From Bacillota bacterium (GTDB lineage: Bacteria > Bacillota > UBA4882 > UBA8346): a stretch of 46,758 nt of DNA. Within the stretch, counting starts at the first letter, position 1. The number at the start of each line of letters is the position of its first letter. Shown here one piece after another: positions 3,165 through 37,881 of the stretch. The stretch spans positions 1 through 46,758 of the forward strand of contig JAKOTQ010000008.1 of assembly GCA_029776205.1 (NCBI GenBank), written 5' to 3'. The translations under genes and the position numbers were made by a program. A model generated the notes under the pieces. That model was not told the origin of the DNA and did no database searches. It was given only the letters and a program-made list of their open reading frames with translations.

Positions 3165-3281
3165 TGAGATCAGGAGGAGTCAGCAGTTAAAAGACAAAAG
3201 TATTGAGTACTGTGAACTGTGTACTTATCAATGGAACCCAAGGCCCGAAACTATCTCCTGTCTACTGTCTACTGACTCCTC
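3165..3281. repeat. Imperfect short-repeat cluster (copy A), abutting the pflA stop
   Basis: The gap between tRNA-Arg and pflA contains TACTGTGAACTGTGTACTT (3208-3226) and a run of CTGTCTACT units at 3257-3275. The 12-mer CTATCTCCTGTC (3251-3262) is the exact reverse complement of a 12-mer in copy C (15685-15696). The run continues into the last codons and TAG stop of pflA. No ORF or clear terminator was seen here. Confidence 0.55.
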
Positions 3282-3973: not shown

Positions 3974-4009
3974 CGGAACACCCCCGCTTTTCTAGTTAAG
4001 ACAGTTGAG

Positions 4010-4325
4010 ACAGTTGACAGTTAAGAAGGATAAAGGGTACTGGGTACTAGGTGCTGGATACTAGGTTCTATGCTTTAGGTTCCAGGTTCTAGCTTTTATG
4101 TTTAGGAAGAAACGCGAACGCGTTCCCTCCATCACCCAGAACCTAGAACCTAGGATCTCGAACCCTATAACTGCACGAAACGAAGAACGAGAATTAGACC
4201 TCACCCCGGCCTCCTCCTAAAGGAGAGGGTCCGAGCCCGAAACGACAGTTAATCTCTATATGCTGTGTATTGTGAACCGTGCACCCGTAAAAACAACTAT
4301 CCACTGTACACTGTCAACTGTTAAG
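4010..4325. repeat. Repeat-filled gap between pflB and pflA (copy B), with 12-bp terminal inverted repeats
   Basis: The 365-bp gap 3974-4338 has no credible gene. It is bounded by ACAGTTGACAGT (4010-4021) and its exact complement ACTGTCAACTGT (4310-4321). Inside are imperfect inverted copies of a TAGGTTCTAGGTTC-type word (about 4073-4092 and 4138-4154) around the palindrome AACGCG-AA-CGCGTT (4111-4124), and a CTCC-TAAA-GGAG hairpin in a CTCACCCCGGCCT context (about 4200-4235). The layout resembles a miniature element or a composite of REP-like hairpins. No transposase is linked. Confidence 0.6.
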
Positions 4326-4338
4326 TTACTAAGCCTAT

Positions 4339-6558
4339 TCACATCCGCTCATATATCGTCCGCTCAATCACTTCCATCTGCTGTTCTTTACTGAGCTTGG
4401 TGAAATGAACAGCGTAACCGGACACCCGGATGGTGAGGTTGGGGTAGAGTTCCGGATGCTCCATGGCATCGATCAAGGTTTCCCTACTGTAGACATTAAC
4501 ATTCATATGGTGGCCGCCGGAACCGAAATACCCGTTCAACAGATTGACCAGATTGTGAATCCGCTGCGGCATATCTTCACCCAATGCCCGCGGTGTGATG
4601 GAAAAGGTATAAGAGATACCGTCCCGGCAAACTTCATAGGGAAGCTTTGCTACCGAACGCATAGCAGCAATCACTCCGGAAAGCTCCCTGCCATGCATCG
4701 GATTGGCGCCGGGTGCGAAAGGTTTCCCCCGCTCCCGGCCATCCGGCGTTGCACCGGTTTTCTTTCCGTAAACCACATTGGAGGTAATCGTTAATACTGA
4801 GAGGGTCGGTACCGCATTACGATAAATGGGCTGTTCCGACAGGGAATTGTAGAAATAGCGCAACACCCGGACCGCCAATCCGTCCACCCGGTCATCATCA
4901 TTGCCATAACAAGGGAAATCTCCTTCGATCTCAAACCGTTCGGCAATTCCCTGTTCATTCCGGATGGCTTTCACTTTAGCGAAGCGGATGGCGCTTAAGG
5001 AATCCGCCACCACCGAAAGCCCTGCCACTCCAAACGCCATATGTCGATGAGGATTGGAATCAATCAAAGCCATCTGGACCCGCTCATAATTGTACTTATC
5101 ATGCATATAGTGGATGCAGTTCATCGTCCGGCTGTACAACACCGAAAGCCATGTAAGAACCCGTTCATAATTGCTCCATACTTGATCCCACTCCAAATAT
5201 TCGCCGGTAAGTTCCGGAACATCCAGCACCTGTTCGCCGGTGAGCTCGTCGCGGCCGCCGTTGATGGCGAGCAGCAACGCCTTGGCCAAATTAACCCGGG
5301 CTCCAAAAAACTGCATATCCTTGCCAAGGCGCGTGGCTGACACGCAGCATGAGATCCCATAGTCATCCCCGAAGATGGGACGCATCAAATCGTCATTTTC
5401 AAACTGAATCGCCGACGTTTCGATGGCCGTCCGGGCGCAAAAATCCCGGAACGGTTTGGGCAAGCGCGAGCTCCAGAGAACCGTCAGGTTCGGTTCAGGC
5501 GCAGTCCCAAGATTTCGCAGGGTTTGCAGCCAGCGATAATCGGTCTTCGTCACCAGCGGCCGGCCGTCATCGGCCATACCGCCGAGGGATTCAGTGACCC
5601 AAGTTGGATCGCCGGCAAAAAGCTCGTCATATTCCGGCGTACGTAAGTGCCGGACCAAACGCAGTTTAATCGTCAGTTGGTCAATTAACTCCTGAGCTTC
5701 GGTCTCCGTCAAGGTTCCTTCATCCAAATCCCTTTGGATATAAATATCCAAAAAGGGACTGTTATGACCGAAGGACATGGCTGCACCGTTTTGCTCCTTC
5801 ACTGCACACAGATATGCCATATACAGCCATTGAACCGCTTCCCGGGCATTACTGGCCGGCCGGGTAATATCGCACCCGTATGCTTTACCCAATTCGGCCA
5901 TCCGCTCCAATGCCCGAATCTGATCGGCAATATCCTCCCGCAGGTGAATGGTGGTATCATCCACGTTATCCAAAGCGTAAAGATCTTTTTCTTTTTCCTG
6001 ACGCAAAAATTCAGTACCGTAAAGCGCAACCCGGCGATAATCGCCGATTAACCGCCCCCGTCCGTAGGCATCGGGAAGTCCGGTAATAATGCCCAATCTC
6101 CGGGCCTGCCGCATGGCCGGAGTATAAATGCGGAAAATAGCTTCATTTTGCGTCCGGCGAAAACTGGTAAATATCTTGGCCATCTGCGGATCGGGTTCAA
6201 CGCCTCTGGCTTTGCAGGCAGCCTCCACCATTCGCCAGCCACCCCACGGATTCACCATCCGTTTCAACGGCTCATCAGTTTGCAAACCCACGATCACTTC
6301 ATTTTCCCGATCAATAAATCCGGGTTTCCAGGCTGTTATCCCGGCCACCCGTTTGGTATCGATGGCCAACACCCCACCGACCTGCTTCTCTTTCTCCATC
6401 AATTCCAAACATCGGTTCCATACCCGTTGGGTTCGTTCGGACGGACCGGACAAGAAACTTTCGTCCCCATAATAAGGCTGATAGTTATCCCTGATAAAAT
6501 CCGCCACATCCACCCGGTTTCGCCAGCCATCCCCCTTAAATCCTCGCCATGGATCCAT
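4339..6558 (-). CDS. pflB: Pyruvate formate-lyase (formate acetyltransferase)
   Basis: Glycyl-radical enzyme that converts pyruvate and CoA to acetyl-CoA and formate, central to anaerobic mixed-acid fermentation. It has 739 residues from the ATG at 6558. Catalytic Cys404-Cys405 sit in the [13 protein letters not shown] segment, and the radical glycine is Gly714 in RVSGYAVHF near the C-terminus, as in E. coli PflB (C418/C419/G734). An in-frame TTG one codon earlier is possible, but GGAGGAGG nine bases upstream favours the ATG. Transcription starts at a sigma-A promoter (6727-6754) and passes through a ZTP riboswitch, so the gene is expected to respond to folate/purine one-carbon status. PflA follows. 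Confidence 0.97.
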
Positions 6559-6613
6559 CAATATCTACCTCCTCCAATGGTTTTGATGCATTGTCACAAA
6601 TACCAATCAAAGG

Positions 6614-6650
6614 AAAACAAAAACCGCCTGGACATATTCTGCCCAGGCGG
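6614..6650 (-). terminator. Riboswitch-controlled intrinsic terminator before pflB
   Basis: Minus strand: CCGCCTGG and CCAGGCGG form a perfect 8-bp stem (6650-6624) followed by TTTTTGTTTT. No minus-strand gene lies upstream to be terminated, so this is a leader terminator. Its 5' arm is the conserved CCGCCTGGGCA end of the ZTP aptamer, so ligand binding should compete with the terminator. Confidence 0.85.
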
Positions 6651-6718
6651 TCGACAATTCTTACTTCCCTGTACTCCCTCGTGGTTATACCCACTTTTCC
6701 GCCAGTCATACAGGTGCT
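6624..6718 (-). ncRNA. ZTP riboswitch (pfl motif) in the pflB leader
   Basis: The minus-strand leader shows the hallmarks of the pfl RNA motif, which binds ZMP/ZTP. P1 is CCTGTA pairing with TACAGG, with GACTGGCGGAAAA next to it. P2 is GTGG pairing with CCAC, followed by the GAGGGAGTACAGG segment. After a short linker comes the invariant CCGCCTGGGCA, here shared with the terminator stem. Genes under this motif in other bacteria include folate one-carbon, purine and pyruvate formate-lyase genes, in agreement with pflB. By family logic ligand binding should prevent termination and switch pflBA on; the direction was not tested here. Confidence 0.9.
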
Positions 6719-6726
6719 ATACTTTA

Positions 6727-15632: not shown

Positions 15633-15635
15633 TAT

Positions 15636-15828
15636 TCCATGGTACAGTACACAGTACACAATAGATAGGAGCCGGGAGTCAGGAGACAGGAGATAGTCTA
15701 AGTCTAGGATTCCATGGATAGTTCAAGGTACACTTCTCGTTCTCATCTCAGTACTAGTTACTATTAGCAACTTATTTTCTGTATTCCGGCTTCCTCACTG
15801 ACTATTGTCTTCCAACTCCTGTCTACTC
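15636..15828. repeat. Imperfect short-repeat cluster (copy C), abutting the nitrilase stop
   Basis: Gap between convergent genes with ACAGTACACAGTACACA (about 15644-15660), GGAGTCAGGAGACAGGAG (about 15674-15692) and CTCCTGTCTACT (about 15815-15826). It contains GACAGGAGATAG (15685-15696), the reverse complement of a copy A 12-mer. As in copy A, the last unit runs over the TAG stop of the neighbouring minus-strand gene. No gene was seen. Confidence 0.5.
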
Positions 15829-16650
15829 CACTCTTTCAATCCGGTACAAATCCCTCCGGCGATGCTGATAGAGAGGCATATTTTGGCGAACTTCTGCGAT
15901 ACGCCCAAGGTCTATCCCGACTACCTTGACGGTTTCCTCCGCATCTGCCTGCCACAGTATATCTCCCCAGGGACTGACGGCCATCGAGTGGCCATAAGCC
16001 GTATAACTGGCAGCGGGATTGCGGGCCGGACTGACAGCAATGACAAAGATTTGATTATCAATGGCCCGTGCCCTGAGTAATGTTTCCCAATGGGCCGGGC
16101 CGGTGACCATATTAAAAGCAGCTGGCAAAAACAACATCTGTATTCCGGCATCAGCCAACAGCCGAAAATATTCGGGGAACCGAATATCATAACAAATGCC
16201 GACCCCAAACCGGCCATACTCGCTGTCGATCACAGTAAAATCGTTTCCGGGTGTAAAGACAGCCGACTCTTTAAACGTGATTCGGCCCGGAACATCGATA
16301 TCAAAGAGATGCAATTTCCGATGTTTGCCGATAAGTTGCCCCTTTCGGTCAAAGATAAAGGACGCATTGTAGATTCGGTCCCCATCCCGTTCCGGAATGG
16401 AGCCTCCAATGACATAACATTGAAGAGAAACGGCCATCTCCGCAAGAAAACGGACGGTCTCCCCCGTATCCCCTTCCTCTGCAAAAACGGGGAAATAAAG
16501 GTTATCATAAGGGCAATTGAACATCTCCGGCAACACCAGAAAATCTGCCCCGCCCTTTCGGGCTTCTTTCATGAGTTCCTCAGCCCGCTTTAAGTTTTCC
16601 AATTTAGAATCTGAGACCTTCATTTGACAAATACCGATATTAAACATCAT
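15823..16650 (-). CDS. Nitrilase-superfamily carbon-nitrogen hydrolase (omega-amidase-like)
   Basis: Cytosolic amidase of 275 residues. The catalytic triad is visible: Glu42 in LPEMF, Lys112 in KHRKLHLFD and Cys153 in GICYDIRFPE. The GKHRKLHLFDIDVPGRITFKE region and overall length fit Nit2/omega-amidase (branch hydrolysing alpha-ketoglutaramate or similar omega-amides); the substrate is inferred from family only. ATG at 16650 is preferred over a TTG one codon earlier because AAGGGG lies about six bases upstream. A terminator hairpin at 16711-16738 separates it from the sporulation cluster. Confidence 0.9.
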   Translation of the reverse strand: MMFNIGICQMKVSDSKLENLKRAEELMKEARKGGADFLVLPEMFNCPYDNLYFPVFAEEGDTGETVRFLAEMAVSLQCYVIGGSIPERDGDRIYNASFIFDRKGQLIGKHRKLHLFDIDVPGRITFKESAVFTPGNDFTVIDSEYGRFGVGICYDIRFPEYFRLLADAGIQMLFLPAAFNMVTGPAHWETLLRARAIDNQIFVIAVSPARNPAASYTAYGHSMAVSPWGDILWQADAEETVKVVGIDLGRIAEVRQNMPLYQHRRRDLYRIERVE

Positions 16651-16710
16651 CAATATCCCCTTCGATTACATTTCCTTTTTCTTTCGCTTCCTAAAACCCA
16701 ATTCCCTCCC

Positions 16711-16738
16711 AAAAGAAAAAACCACACCGACGGTGTGA
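16711..16738 (-). terminator. Intrinsic terminator between spoIIR and the nitrilase gene
   Basis: CACACC and GGTGTG form a 6-bp stem with a 3-base loop (16723-16737). On the minus strand GGTTTTTTCTTTT follows. It ends transcripts coming from spoIIR through the repeat gap. Confidence 0.75.
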
Positions 16739-16784
16739 TCTCTTTCTCATTATTATAACTATTTACGAACTTAGCATTTCGGGT

Positions 16785-17014
16785 ACACAGTGCACAGTTC
16801 ACAGTGCCCAATTTAGTCATCAGGCGCGAGGCACGAAGAGAGTTGACAGTTTACAGTTTATAGTTGACAGTTTTTTCGGGACCATGATTCACAGTTTCAT
16901 GGTCATAGGTACTCCTTTTGGATTTATTAACTGTCAACTGTCACACTGTCAACTGTATAACTATTTGACACTGTCCACTGTCAACCATGTAACTGTTAGA
17001 CAACTGTGAACTGT
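16785..17014. repeat. Large imperfect inverted repeat (copy D) downstream of spoIIR
   Basis: The 364-bp gap 16651-17014 has no gene. A left arm (16841-16872) with two AGTTGACAGTT words faces a right arm (16928-16962) with two ACTGTCAACTGT words (16930-16941 and 16945-16956). Between them is a perfect hairpin GACCATGA/TCATGGTC (16880-16904). More units flank it: CACAGTGCACAGTTCACAGTG (from 16795) and AACTGTGAACTGTTT (about 17000). The same 12-mer delimits copy B in the pfl gap. Confidence 0.6.
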
Positions 17015-17662
17015 TTAAATCAGCCCAAAATATCGTCCCCAATTTTTCCAAAATTCATCCATGGTTAATCCTTTAGCTTTCACCCAATCTTCCAAAAGGG
17101 CCAACCGGTACTGGACTTTAGGCTTTTGAGTTACTGTCTCCCCTTTAAAAGCCGGGGCATCCGGAGAAAGAAGGCACAATGGCGGATAAAGGATGCACCA
17201 CCAGTTCCGGCCTTTGCCCTCTCCCACGATCACCCGGAGACTTTTATACTCTCCAGCCCCCAAGGTTCCAAAAGGATATTCCCGCTCTGGAAACATATGG
17301 CGGCCAAATTCTGCCCGTACCGGTAAATCCCGGTGATGCTTGGCGATTTCATCTCGGGCTGCTGCTACAATCTGATCTAAATTAGCCCGAATGATGCCCT
17401 CGGCTAGAACCGGATCCTTCACATCCAGCAAAAATTTCTCTGTCAACTCGACAATACGGTTACGGATTTGAAGTTTTAGATTTTGATCTACCAACGCATC
17501 GCTATTGGCGATCACATGTAACCGAATTAAATTCTTTTGATTATAAGCCTCCAAATTGGATGGCTTCATCCAGGCAAACCCGGAGCTCGCTGTGGCCAAT
17601 CCCAGAAAAACAGCGATTAATATCGTTATCGTCAAAATCCGGTATCGTAACACGTCACCCAT
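17015..17662 (-). CDS. spoIIR: Stage II sporulation protein R
   Basis: Secreted forespore signal that activates SpoIIGA across the septum so that pro-sigma-E is cleaved in the mother cell. From the ATG at 17662 the protein is 215 residues with an N-terminal membrane/signal segment (TITILIAVFLGLATASSG). Family signatures are IRLHVIANSDALVDQNLKL and GEGKGRNWWCILYPPLCLL. AAGGTG eight bases upstream supports this ATG; a GTG at 17689 would overlap sigG and is less likely. It follows the sigG stop by 13 bp, so the two are co-transcribed. In B. subtilis spoIIR belongs to the sigma-F regulon; no separate sigma-F site was found here. Confidence 0.93.
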   Translation of the reverse strand: MGDVLRYRILTITILIAVFLGLATASSGFAWMKPSNLEAYNQKNLIRLHVIANSDALVDQNLKLQIRNRIVELTEKFLLDVKDPVLAEGIIRANLDQIVAAARDEIAKHHRDLPVRAEFGRHMFPEREYPFGTLGAGEYKSLRVIVGEGKGRNWWCILYPPLCLLSPDAPAFKGETVTQKPKVQYRLALLEDWVKAKGLTMDEFWKNWGRYFGLI

Positions 17663-17675
17663 TCCCCCGTCACCT

Positions 17676-18467
17676 TTACTCGACTTCACTGTCGGAAATA
17701 TACCGCCTCATATGCTTTAGGGCTGATTTCTCCAACCGGGAAACCTGGGCTTGTGAAATACCGATCTCATCGGCAACTTCCATTTGAGTCCGCCCTTCAA
17801 AGAAGCGTTTTTTCAAAATTAGACTTTCCCGTTCATTCAGTTTGGACATGGCCTCTTTGATTGACAGCCCTTCCAGCCATTGGCCATCCAATTGCTTTTC
17901 ATCACCGATTTGATCCATCACATAGATAGGATCGCCGCCATCATGATAAATGGGTTCAAATAAAGATACCGGTTCCTGAATGGCATCCAATGCAAAGACC
18001 ACTTCTTCCCGGGGAACATTGAGTTCTGCTGCAATCTCCGCCACTGTCGGCTCTTTCGAATTTTTACTCACCAATGCATCCCGTACTTGCAATGCCTTAT
18101 ACGCAATATCCCGCAGGGAACGGCTGACCCGTACCGGGTTGTTATCCCGCAAATAACGTCGGATTTCTCCGATAATCATCGGTACCGCATATGTCGAAAA
18201 TTTAACATTTTGAGATAAATCAAAATTATCGATGGCTTTCATCAGTCCAATGCATCCTACTTGAAACAAATCGTCGACATATTCGCCCCGATTGTTAAAC
18301 CGTTGGATAACACTTAATACTAGACGCAGATTGCCATTGATCAATTCCTCCCTGGCAGACCGTTCTCCATTTTGCATCCTTTCAAGCAATTCCCGCATTT
18401 TACTGCCGGAAAGTACTGGCAATTTGGAAGTATTGACTCCGCAAATTTCAACTTTATTGACTAACAT
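17676..18467 (-). CDS. sigG: RNA polymerase forespore sigma factor G
   Basis: Late forespore sigma factor. The 263-residue protein has the diagnostic N-terminus NKVEICGVNTSKLPVL, region 2 NGNLRLVLSVIQRFNNRGEY with DLFQVGCIGLMKAIDNFDL, and region 4 RTQMEVADEIGISQAQVSR. It aligns almost end to end with B. subtilis SigG. ATG at 18467 gives the same N-terminal length as the Bacillus protein; an in-frame GTG at 18479 is an alternative. A sigma-F/G-type promoter (18510-18539) precedes it, and a terminator of sigE separates the two. Confidence 0.97.
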   Translation of the reverse strand: MLVNKVEICGVNTSKLPVLSGSKMRELLERMQNGERSAREELINGNLRLVLSVIQRFNNRGEYVDDLFQVGCIGLMKAIDNFDLSQNVKFSTYAVPMIIGEIRRYLRDNNPVRVSRSLRDIAYKALQVRDALVSKNSKEPTVAEIAAELNVPREEVVFALDAIQEPVSLFEPIYHDGGDPIYVMDQIGDEKQLDGQWLEGLSIKEAMSKLNERESLILKKRFFEGRTQMEVADEIGISQAQVSRLEKSALKHMRRYISDSEVE

Positions 18468-36959: not shown

Positions 36960-37499
36960 CTACCTTCGCTTTCTCCACGACCGAATCCGTTCTAACCCTT
37001 CGGTAAGCTTTTTCTTCACATCGGAAAAGTCATCCTGAGTCAATGTCGCATTTTCGTCATCCGGTTGGATGAAATTTTGCAACATGGATTTGAATTTCTC
37101 GCCCGGAAGCATTACGCCATTTCCTTGGGTTAGATTGAGCATTTCATAAAAGGTCTCATCATTATATTCTTTGAGCAATGTAATCCCGTGCTCGGTACAG
37201 CCCACCAGAAGCACCTGATTGTTGACTAATAATAGATAAATATGGCGATTAGGCCCCAAAGTGAGGCTTTCTGCCACCTTAATATATTTCGCCTGCGACA
37301 CATTGAGCTTCCCCGCTAAAAAACGGGTCGCCCAATAGGCAAGGAAAAGAACAACCATCAATGAAAATAAAGCCCACACCCACTGTCCACCAAATTCAGG
37401 ACTCGGAGGTTCATTGGCTTCTGCGGCAAAAACTACTGGCAGGAAGGAAAAACCGGCGATCAAGACAAGGGCAGTAAAAAACCGGTTAAATTTACCCAA
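36960..37499 (-). CDS. fliO: Flagellar biosynthetic protein FliO (FliZ)
   Basis: Membrane chaperone for FliP assembly. From the TTG at 37499 it is 179 residues: a signal-like helix (FFTALVLIAGFSFLPVVFA), a second membrane helix (WVWALFSLMVVLFLAYWATR), then the FliO cytoplasmic domain (KLNVSQAKYIKVAESLTLG, RHIYLLLVNNQVLLVG). AAGGGAG seven bases upstream sets the TTG start; a longer reading frame would overlap cheY in full. Confidence 0.88.
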   Translation of the reverse strand: MGKFNRFFTALVLIAGFSFLPVVFAAEANEPPSPEFGGQWVWALFSLMVVLFLAYWATRFLAGKLNVSQAKYIKVAESLTLGPNRHIYLLLVNNQVLLVGCTEHGITLLKEYNDETFYEMLNLTQGNGVMLPGEKFKSMLQNFIQPDDENATLTQDDFSDVKKKLTEGLERIRSWRKRR

Positions 37500-37518
37500 A
37501 TATGTCGCTCCCTTCCGT

Positions 37519-37881
37519 TTATGACAAAACTTTTCGGACCGCTTCCAAAACCCGATCCGGTTGGAACGGCTTAACCACAAAGTCGCGGGCTCCAGCTTGA
37601 ATCGCATCAATAACCATGGCCTGTTGACCCATAGCGCTGCACATGATAATTAAAGCATTCGGATCGATTTTCCGAATTTCCTTAACTGCAGTGATTCCGT
37701 CCATATCCGGCATAGTAATATCCATGGTCACCAGATCCGGTTGGAGTTCTTTATATTTTTCTATGGCTTTAGCACCATCTTCTGCCTCACCTACGACTTC
37801 ATATCCCCCTTTTCTCAGGATATCTTTGATCATCATTCGCATAAATGCCGCATCATCCACAACTAATACTCGATTACGCAC
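37519..37881 (-). CDS. cheY: Chemotaxis response regulator CheY
   Basis: Single receiver domain of 120 residues. The acidic pocket is D9-D10 in LVVDDAAFMR, phospho-acceptor D54 in TMDITMPDMDG, S82 in MCSAMGQ and K104 in VVKPFQ. The start is GTG at 37881 with GGGGGAG six bases upstream. Placement between fliY and fliO is typical of Bacillota. Confidence 0.97.
   Translation of the reverse strand: MRNRVLVVDDAAFMRMMIKDILRKGGYEVVGEAEDGAKAIEKYKELQPDLVTMDITMPDMDGITAVKEIRKIDPNALIIMCSAMGQQAMVIDAIQAGARDFVVKPFQPDRVLEAVRKVLS

Follow-up and report, generated by a model that had tools for sequence, protein, structure and literature searches.

Inverted heptamer arrays downstream of spoIIR are one copy of a dispersed intergenic repeat type in a Bacillota genome

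RESULTS

Heptamer arrays between spoIIR and a likely terminator

The window analyzed here is the whole 46,758-nt stretch of contig JAKOTQ010000008.1. The gap under study is bounded by spoIIR (17015-17689, minus strand) and a nitrilase-family gene (15823-16653, minus strand); the spoIIR call comes from a TIGR02837 match (E 1.7e-40) whose score, 138.3 bits, is under the curated cut-off of 151.9. The gap holds four heptad arrays, two forward and then two in reverse complement, of a degenerate 7-bp word, and Tandem Repeats Finder assigned the arms a period of 7. On the plus strand, the first array (16777-16812, period 7) is made of CACAGTG and CACAGTT words, and the second (16831-16872, Tandem Repeats Finder) passes from GCACGAA words into AGTTGAC words, with AGTTGACAGTT at 16841-16851 and again at 16862-16872. 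On the minus strand, an array of AACTGTC words (16929-16956) contains both copies of the 12-mer ACTGTCAACTGT found in this gap (16930-16941 and 16945-16956), and a decayed array (16970-17014) touches the spoIIR stop codon (TAA, minus strand, 17017-17015), which the right arm directly adjoins. Between the arms, at 16880-16904 and assigned to neither strand, a word search located a hairpin in which GACCATGA (16880-16887) base-pairs with TCATGGTC (16897-16904). All of the words named in a preliminary description of this DNA, and its hairpin, are present in the window where it had placed them. That description also put the gap between a sporulation gene and its distal terminator. A palindrome (CACACCG/CGGTGTG) at about 16718-16740, followed by a T run on the minus strand and kept in a related MAG, is likely that terminator; the sporulation gene is identified at the sub-cut-off score given above.

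The 12-mer is common to the spoIIR gap and the pfl gap, as had been noted, with a copy at 4310-4321; a fourth copy in the window lies on the minus strand at 4010-4021. With up to two mismatches allowed, the window contains 20 copies, versus 1.76 expected and a maximum of 7 in 100 shuffles. The pfl gap is organized like the spoIIR gap, with the addition of an inner pair of GGTTCTA-type arrays flanking a palindromic core. Its forward arrays (4009-4103, plus strand) consist of TTGACAG words and then GGTACTA/GGTTCTA words; the core, GAAACGCGAACGCGTTCC (4109-4126, neither strand), is 1 mismatch from the dispersed core GGAACGC..GCGTTCC described below; a reverse array of AACCTAG words (4126-4164, minus strand) is the partner of the GGTTCTA array; and a further reverse array (4292-4326, minus strand), close to the pfl stop codon, includes the shared 12-mer. 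Reverse arrays of ACTGTGA and ACTGTCT words occupy the gap beside the pfl-activase gene (3199-3274, minus strand), and forward arrays of ACAGTAC and AGTCAGG words (15633-15700, plus strand) lie immediately 3' of the stop codon of an MFS transporter gene, whose gap in the related MAG is 40 nt only.

Two other features of this region were recorded. A 30-nt palindromic stretch resembling CTCACCCCGGCCTCCTCCTAAAGGAGAGGG (4198-4227) has 90% identity to C35:138514-138543, and comparable stretches occur in other array gaps; these may form a second family of repeats nested among the heptads. An Rfam search of the window returned two tRNAs and a ZTP riboswitch only, with no match for the arrays; this ZMP/ZTP riboswitch (RF01750, 65.5 bits; 6634-6719, minus strand) lies directly 5' of the pyruvate formate-lyase gene (4339-6561).

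The unit is a degenerate 7-bp word in intergenic DNA

ACTGTCAACTGT has 44 exact places, on many contigs, in the genome of 2,727,293 bases. In an 843-kb sample, 86% of which is coding, 21 copies were intergenic and 0 were genic, and 200 shuffled 12-mers gave a mean of 0.13 and a maximum of 2 in the same sample. The preliminary description had staked its dispersed repeat family on this count and gene split, and copy number, lag-7 signal, and word families all bear the family out. The 12-mer is not the repeat unit, however: the unit is 7 bp, of which the 12-mer spans ~1.7. Self-similarity in intergenic DNA peaked at lags 7 and 14 only, at 12.1 and 6.9 per 10 kb in the larger sample. The other lags from 4 to 13 gave 0.7 to 1.6 per 10 kb, coding DNA gave 0.36 at lag 7, and intergenic DNA of the related genome gave 19.3 at lag 7. 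These rates are biased by contig choice: each own-genome contig in the sample was already recognized as carrying one or more 12-mers, and the contigs of the related genome had mostly been picked for 12-mer content. The same choice may bias the orthologous-gap test described below and hardly affects polarity or the genic/intergenic split. A first 447-kb sample contained 61 intergenic lag-7 windows, versus 3.4 in Markov sequence; together with the mismatch counts in the window and the shuffled 12-mers, this rules out a chance origin. Among spacings of up to 45 between successive ACAGT words, 133 of 227 in gaps were 7 and 28 were 14, while coding DNA gave 2 of 30 for each. By lag, Tandem Repeats Finder, and spacing alike, the arrays have the tandem 7-nt unit of heptamer simple sequence repeats (SSR) and STRR-like repeats, and they share with these an intergenic, genome-dispersed location. 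The repeat unit is thus a degenerate tandem 7-bp word (CAGTTGA and relatives) in an inverted array pair.

Genes were predicted with an in-house codon-usage script, which missed some (for example, 36960-37610). By these predictions, arrays were rare in the 25 nt 5' of starts and frequent 3' of stops. Within 100 nt past stop codons, forward-type arrays covered 6 to 7% of positions and reverse-type arrays covered 0.6 to 3.3%.

Forward arrays precede reverse arrays

Polarity was tested with five word families, in both orientations, across the gaps of both genomes. Where a gap held both orientations of a family, forward words preceded reverse words in 72 of 73 cases, which are not independent since word families overlap inside gaps; the remaining case was interleaved and none was reversed. 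The order was kept in 22/22 cases for CAGTTNA, 5/5 for GGTNCTA, 7/7 for GAGNCAG, 2/2 for GGCAYGA, and 36/37 for CAGTNCA, which contributed the interleaved case. The same 72 of 73 show the Xanthomonas-type arrangement, in which close pairs on opposite strands have a fixed relative orientation. Single-orientation gaps carried their words on the expected side in 96 of 123 cases; an AG/CT version of the test, first applied post hoc and later replaced by the word families, gave 48 kept versus 34 broken, a side preference that was not significant (P 0.15). By the AG/CT measure, 39 of 42 tandem gaps were in order (2 mixed, 1 reversed), as were 5/5 convergent and 6/6 divergent gaps. Since the order holds across tandem, convergent, and divergent gaps, the rule belongs to the element and not to gene direction.

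These data bear on the notion of a readthrough trap, in which TGA or TAG in the heptads would present ribosomes leaving a gene with stops in all three frames. TTGACAG and GTTCTAG words do carry a stop, 7 is not divisible by 3, and the arrays are located 3' of stop codons. Polarity is identical in the 6/6 divergent gaps, however, where neither flanking gene reads in, and GAGACAG words lack a stop; we regard such a trap as highly improbable.

Folding and cores

As minus-strand RNA, 16785-17014 folded to -81.5 kcal/mol (z -6.0), and the plus-strand DNA fold gave z -3.9. Each was more stable than every one of 200 shuffles. Folding was also more stable in 40 sampled array gaps (median z -2.27) than in 40 other gaps (median z -1.41, P 0.04). 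The term "nested cruciform" nevertheless overstates the pairing, as the complementarity of arms within a gap was not clearly greater than that with the arms of other gaps (P 0.07). Copying of one arm from the other by local fold-back is unsupported by the same comparison; arms of one gap that are no better matched than those of other gaps fit copying between loci.

The GACCATGA/TCATGGTC hairpin named in the preliminary description does not belong to the repeat family: it occurs at 1 place in its own genome and at 0 in the related genome and was rejected as the family core. A recurrent core, GGAACGC-N-GCGTTCC, was found instead at 17 places in the own genome and 30 in the sister genome, with a constant stem and a variable loop, and most of the examined copies were bordered by GGTTCTA-type words. 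A covariation check of this element found 0 of 7 core pairs changed on both sides among 15 selected copies. Composite modules are also common to different loci, at 76 to 88% identity. The spoIIR stretch that runs from GCACGAA into AGTTGAC words recurs at C76:23295-23386 (76% over 92 nt) and, in reverse orientation, at C35:33403-33456 (85% over 54 nt).

One alternative is that the inverted arrays are kept as a hairpin of the transcript past the stop codon, protecting or processing the mRNA. The z of -6.0 at spoIIR, the better folding of the 40 array gaps (P 0.04), and the coverage by forward arrays of 6 to 7% of the first 100 nt past stops all favor this idea. However, divergent gaps bear arrays about as often (19/84) as tandem (96/465) and convergent (20/67) gaps, no core pair changed on both sides, and the arms within a gap are not specifically matched. 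We therefore consider an mRNA 3'-end element unlikely. At spoIIR itself, we most likely see passive 3' sequence that runs from the stop codon to the terminator and is transcribed as a hairpin; a function of the arrays, including a regulatory role at spoIIR, is unproven.

Binding of a nucleoid or regulatory protein to words in 7-bp register, with the inverted pair as a dyad, would account for strict register and polarity across several word families and for a conserved core with a variable loop, and has been proposed for the paired heptamers of Geobacter metallireducens (PMC2700814). The use of at least five different words and the replacement of contents between close species argue against it, and we judge protein-binding arrays to be distinctly unlikely.

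Turnover of array contents between related species

Contig JAKOSX010000105.1 of the related MAG is identical to G001 across 1101 bases. In this MAG, spoIIR is 85% identical, the distal terminator is kept, and the gap holds a GGTACTA-type element instead. Across 67 orthologous gaps, arrays were present in both genomes in 10, in the own genome only in 5, in the sister only in 4, and in neither in 48 (odds ratio 24, P 8.6e-6), so that 10 of 15 array-bearing own gaps were also array-bearing in the related MAG. Median gap identity was 0.53 with arrays in both genomes versus 0.77 with none, and of the 22 points at which collinear alignment broke, 16 held an array in one or both genomes. Much of the architecture was kept in the pfl gap and in two further gaps (3 of the 10 both-array gaps). 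Replacement of array contents at the same gap between the two species is frequent, not universal.

A nonautonomous REP-like or MITE-like element moved by a transposase could explain why composite copies are dispersed and why the GGAACGC..GCGTTCC core is found in many gaps of both genomes. Yet aligned copies show no fixed ends, species differences in the gaps viewed are replacements with no clean insertion or empty site, and no Y1 transposase was found, PF01797 being the only transposase family searched. The RAYT search proposed as a check in the preliminary description returned 0 PF01797 matches in the own genome, which is 99.4% complete, and the same search was positive in 5 of 14 control genomes. 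A mobile element of this kind is improbable, and a REP-RAYT origin of the repeat is unlikely.

Occurrence in other genomes

Of 29 genomes of the class, 2 contained the word CAGTTDACAGTTDACAGTT, both from this genus; across the phylum, 10 of 398 sampled genomes, belonging to several families, contained it, one genome at 68 places. In five genomes holding it, intergenic DNA had lag-7 rates of 11 to 31 per 10 kb, measured in stretches selected mostly by hits; one of these genomes (G066) had high rates at other lags too. Clusters in other Bacillota were forward before reverse in 7 cases and mixed in 2 by the word test, in which word definitions overlap; by the AG/CT test, 10 gaps were consistent, 1 was mixed, and 0 were reversed. 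Other genera of the family showed no lag-7 excess (1.15 per 10 kb) in 154 kb, a small sample for which gene calling had been trained on the own genome.

Isolated heptad arrays were nonetheless seen in those other genera (genomes G003, G004, and G009); such arrays were recorded at L058:1490-1530, L128:1494-1560, and L129:1380-1520, the first of them just 5' of a Shine-Dalgarno-like sequence and a start codon. In two unrelated Bacillota among the five genomes with measured lag-7 rates, tRNA-gene gaps are filled by heptad arrays of the same polarity (L145:1381-1539 and L146:1472-1566). A contig from a viral collection (L163:1610-1720) carries a long CAACTCT heptad array that turns into CAACTGT words within the same array.

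DISCUSSION

The feature downstream of spoIIR is one copy of a dispersed intergenic heptamer-array repeat type, and it varies on a theme of heptamer repeats that earlier studies have reported from other bacteria. The preliminary description saw no obvious match to described STRR types; that view did not hold, since a 7-bp word in several families matches the general STRR or heptamer-SSR kind. The Xanthomonas GGGAATC and Nostoc GGGGA(C/T)T repeats are likewise tandem, degenerate, and intergenic heptamers, and are described as having no preferred functional class (Rehm 2015, PMC4692102). Their G-rich strand reads away from the open reading frame (ORF), and they lie nearer the upstream ORF; Xanthomonas has 70 and 75 close convergent inverted pairs (PMC4692102). 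These pairs, and G-rich words reading outward from ORFs, amount to a polarity rule like the one seen here. The arrays described here differ in using other words, in several families per gap, and in the palindromic core of one family; also, 83% of Xanthomonas repeats are reported in the same context in the other species (PMC4692102), whereas contents here are mostly replaced between related species. CAGTTGA, GGTTCTA, GAGTCAG, and GCATGAG have no runs of three G, and we found no G-quadruplex tracts in them.

Geobacter metallireducens carries tandem MTYCTGA heptamers in opposite-strand pairs at variable distance, in 16 sequences that the authors read as sites of a global regulator (PMC2700814). 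These resemble the GAGTCAG family but involve one word, compared with at least five here. TAACTGA repeats of Beggiatoaceae, Cyanobacteria, and Bacteroidetes, which are mixed with other heptamers in Microcystis, are also intergenic heptamer arrays of a related word (MacGregor 2015, PMC4679880); those of Beggiatoaceae are described as mostly direct repeats just 5' of starts, in contrast with the inverted pairs avoiding starts that we observed (PMC4679880). Calothrix STRR, short tandem heptanucleotides with several families per genome (as cited in PMC4692102), are alike by description alone. REP/BIME sequences with RAYT are dispersed extragenic palindromes near gene ends (PMC3733652), unlike the present repeats, which have tandem 7-bp arms, no RAYT gene, and no fixed unit length. 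No description of repeats of this type from this lineage turned up in our search of open-licence papers.

The origin of heptamer repeats is unexplained, though they have been noted in many bacteria; slippage linked to a 7-nt polymerase contact is one idea (Mrazek 2007, as cited in PMC4679880 and PMC4692102). Strict polarity, and arrays at the same gap with mostly different contents, make models of origin testable here: under slippage alone no polarity is expected, an mRNA hairpin should leave arrays scarce in divergent gaps, and a mobile element should have fixed ends. The element comprises two inward-facing degenerate heptamer arrays, forward on the left and reverse on the right, around a variable core. 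From the 7-bp register, intergenic location, polarity, modules common to loci, and content replacement that we observed, we infer a process of the following kind. Arrays may lengthen and shorten through 7-nt slippage, and those at separate loci may trade content via common words, by template switching or gene conversion. An array-bearing gap would tend to stay array-bearing while its contents turn over, and the fixed polarity would stem from a dyad-symmetric founder, possibly being kept as the inverted pair forms a hairpin.

Our confidence in such a slippage-prone, copy-spread intergenic repeat with inward-facing arrays is evenly divided. In its favor are the confinement of the lag-7 excess to intergenic DNA, the shared composite modules, the dispersed core, and the occupation of the same gaps in the related MAG. 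Against it, no slippage or conversion event was caught among the loci compared, polarity is not predicted by slippage on its own, and 3 of 10 both-array gaps largely keep their architecture, in an orthologous-gap test biased by contig choice. A broader and rather doubtful proposal is that heptad-armed inverted arrays form one self-renewing intergenic class recurring in distant bacteria, with a non-RAYT process of 7-nt step and strand-specific recognition that would rewrite gaps in place. Were this so, reading away from whichever gene flanks an array, one would always meet the same word type first.

A general permissive cause, the loss of SbcD, a nuclease that acts on palindromes, was considered and rejected: 4 of 11 genomes with the exact word and 17 of 39 without it were over the cut-off (Fisher P 0.74). 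Within the family, the TIGR00619 cut-off was passed by 6 of 8 other genomes and by neither genome of this genus. In the own genome, an SMC-like ATPase gene adjoins a metallophosphoesterase gene at L100:571-4939.
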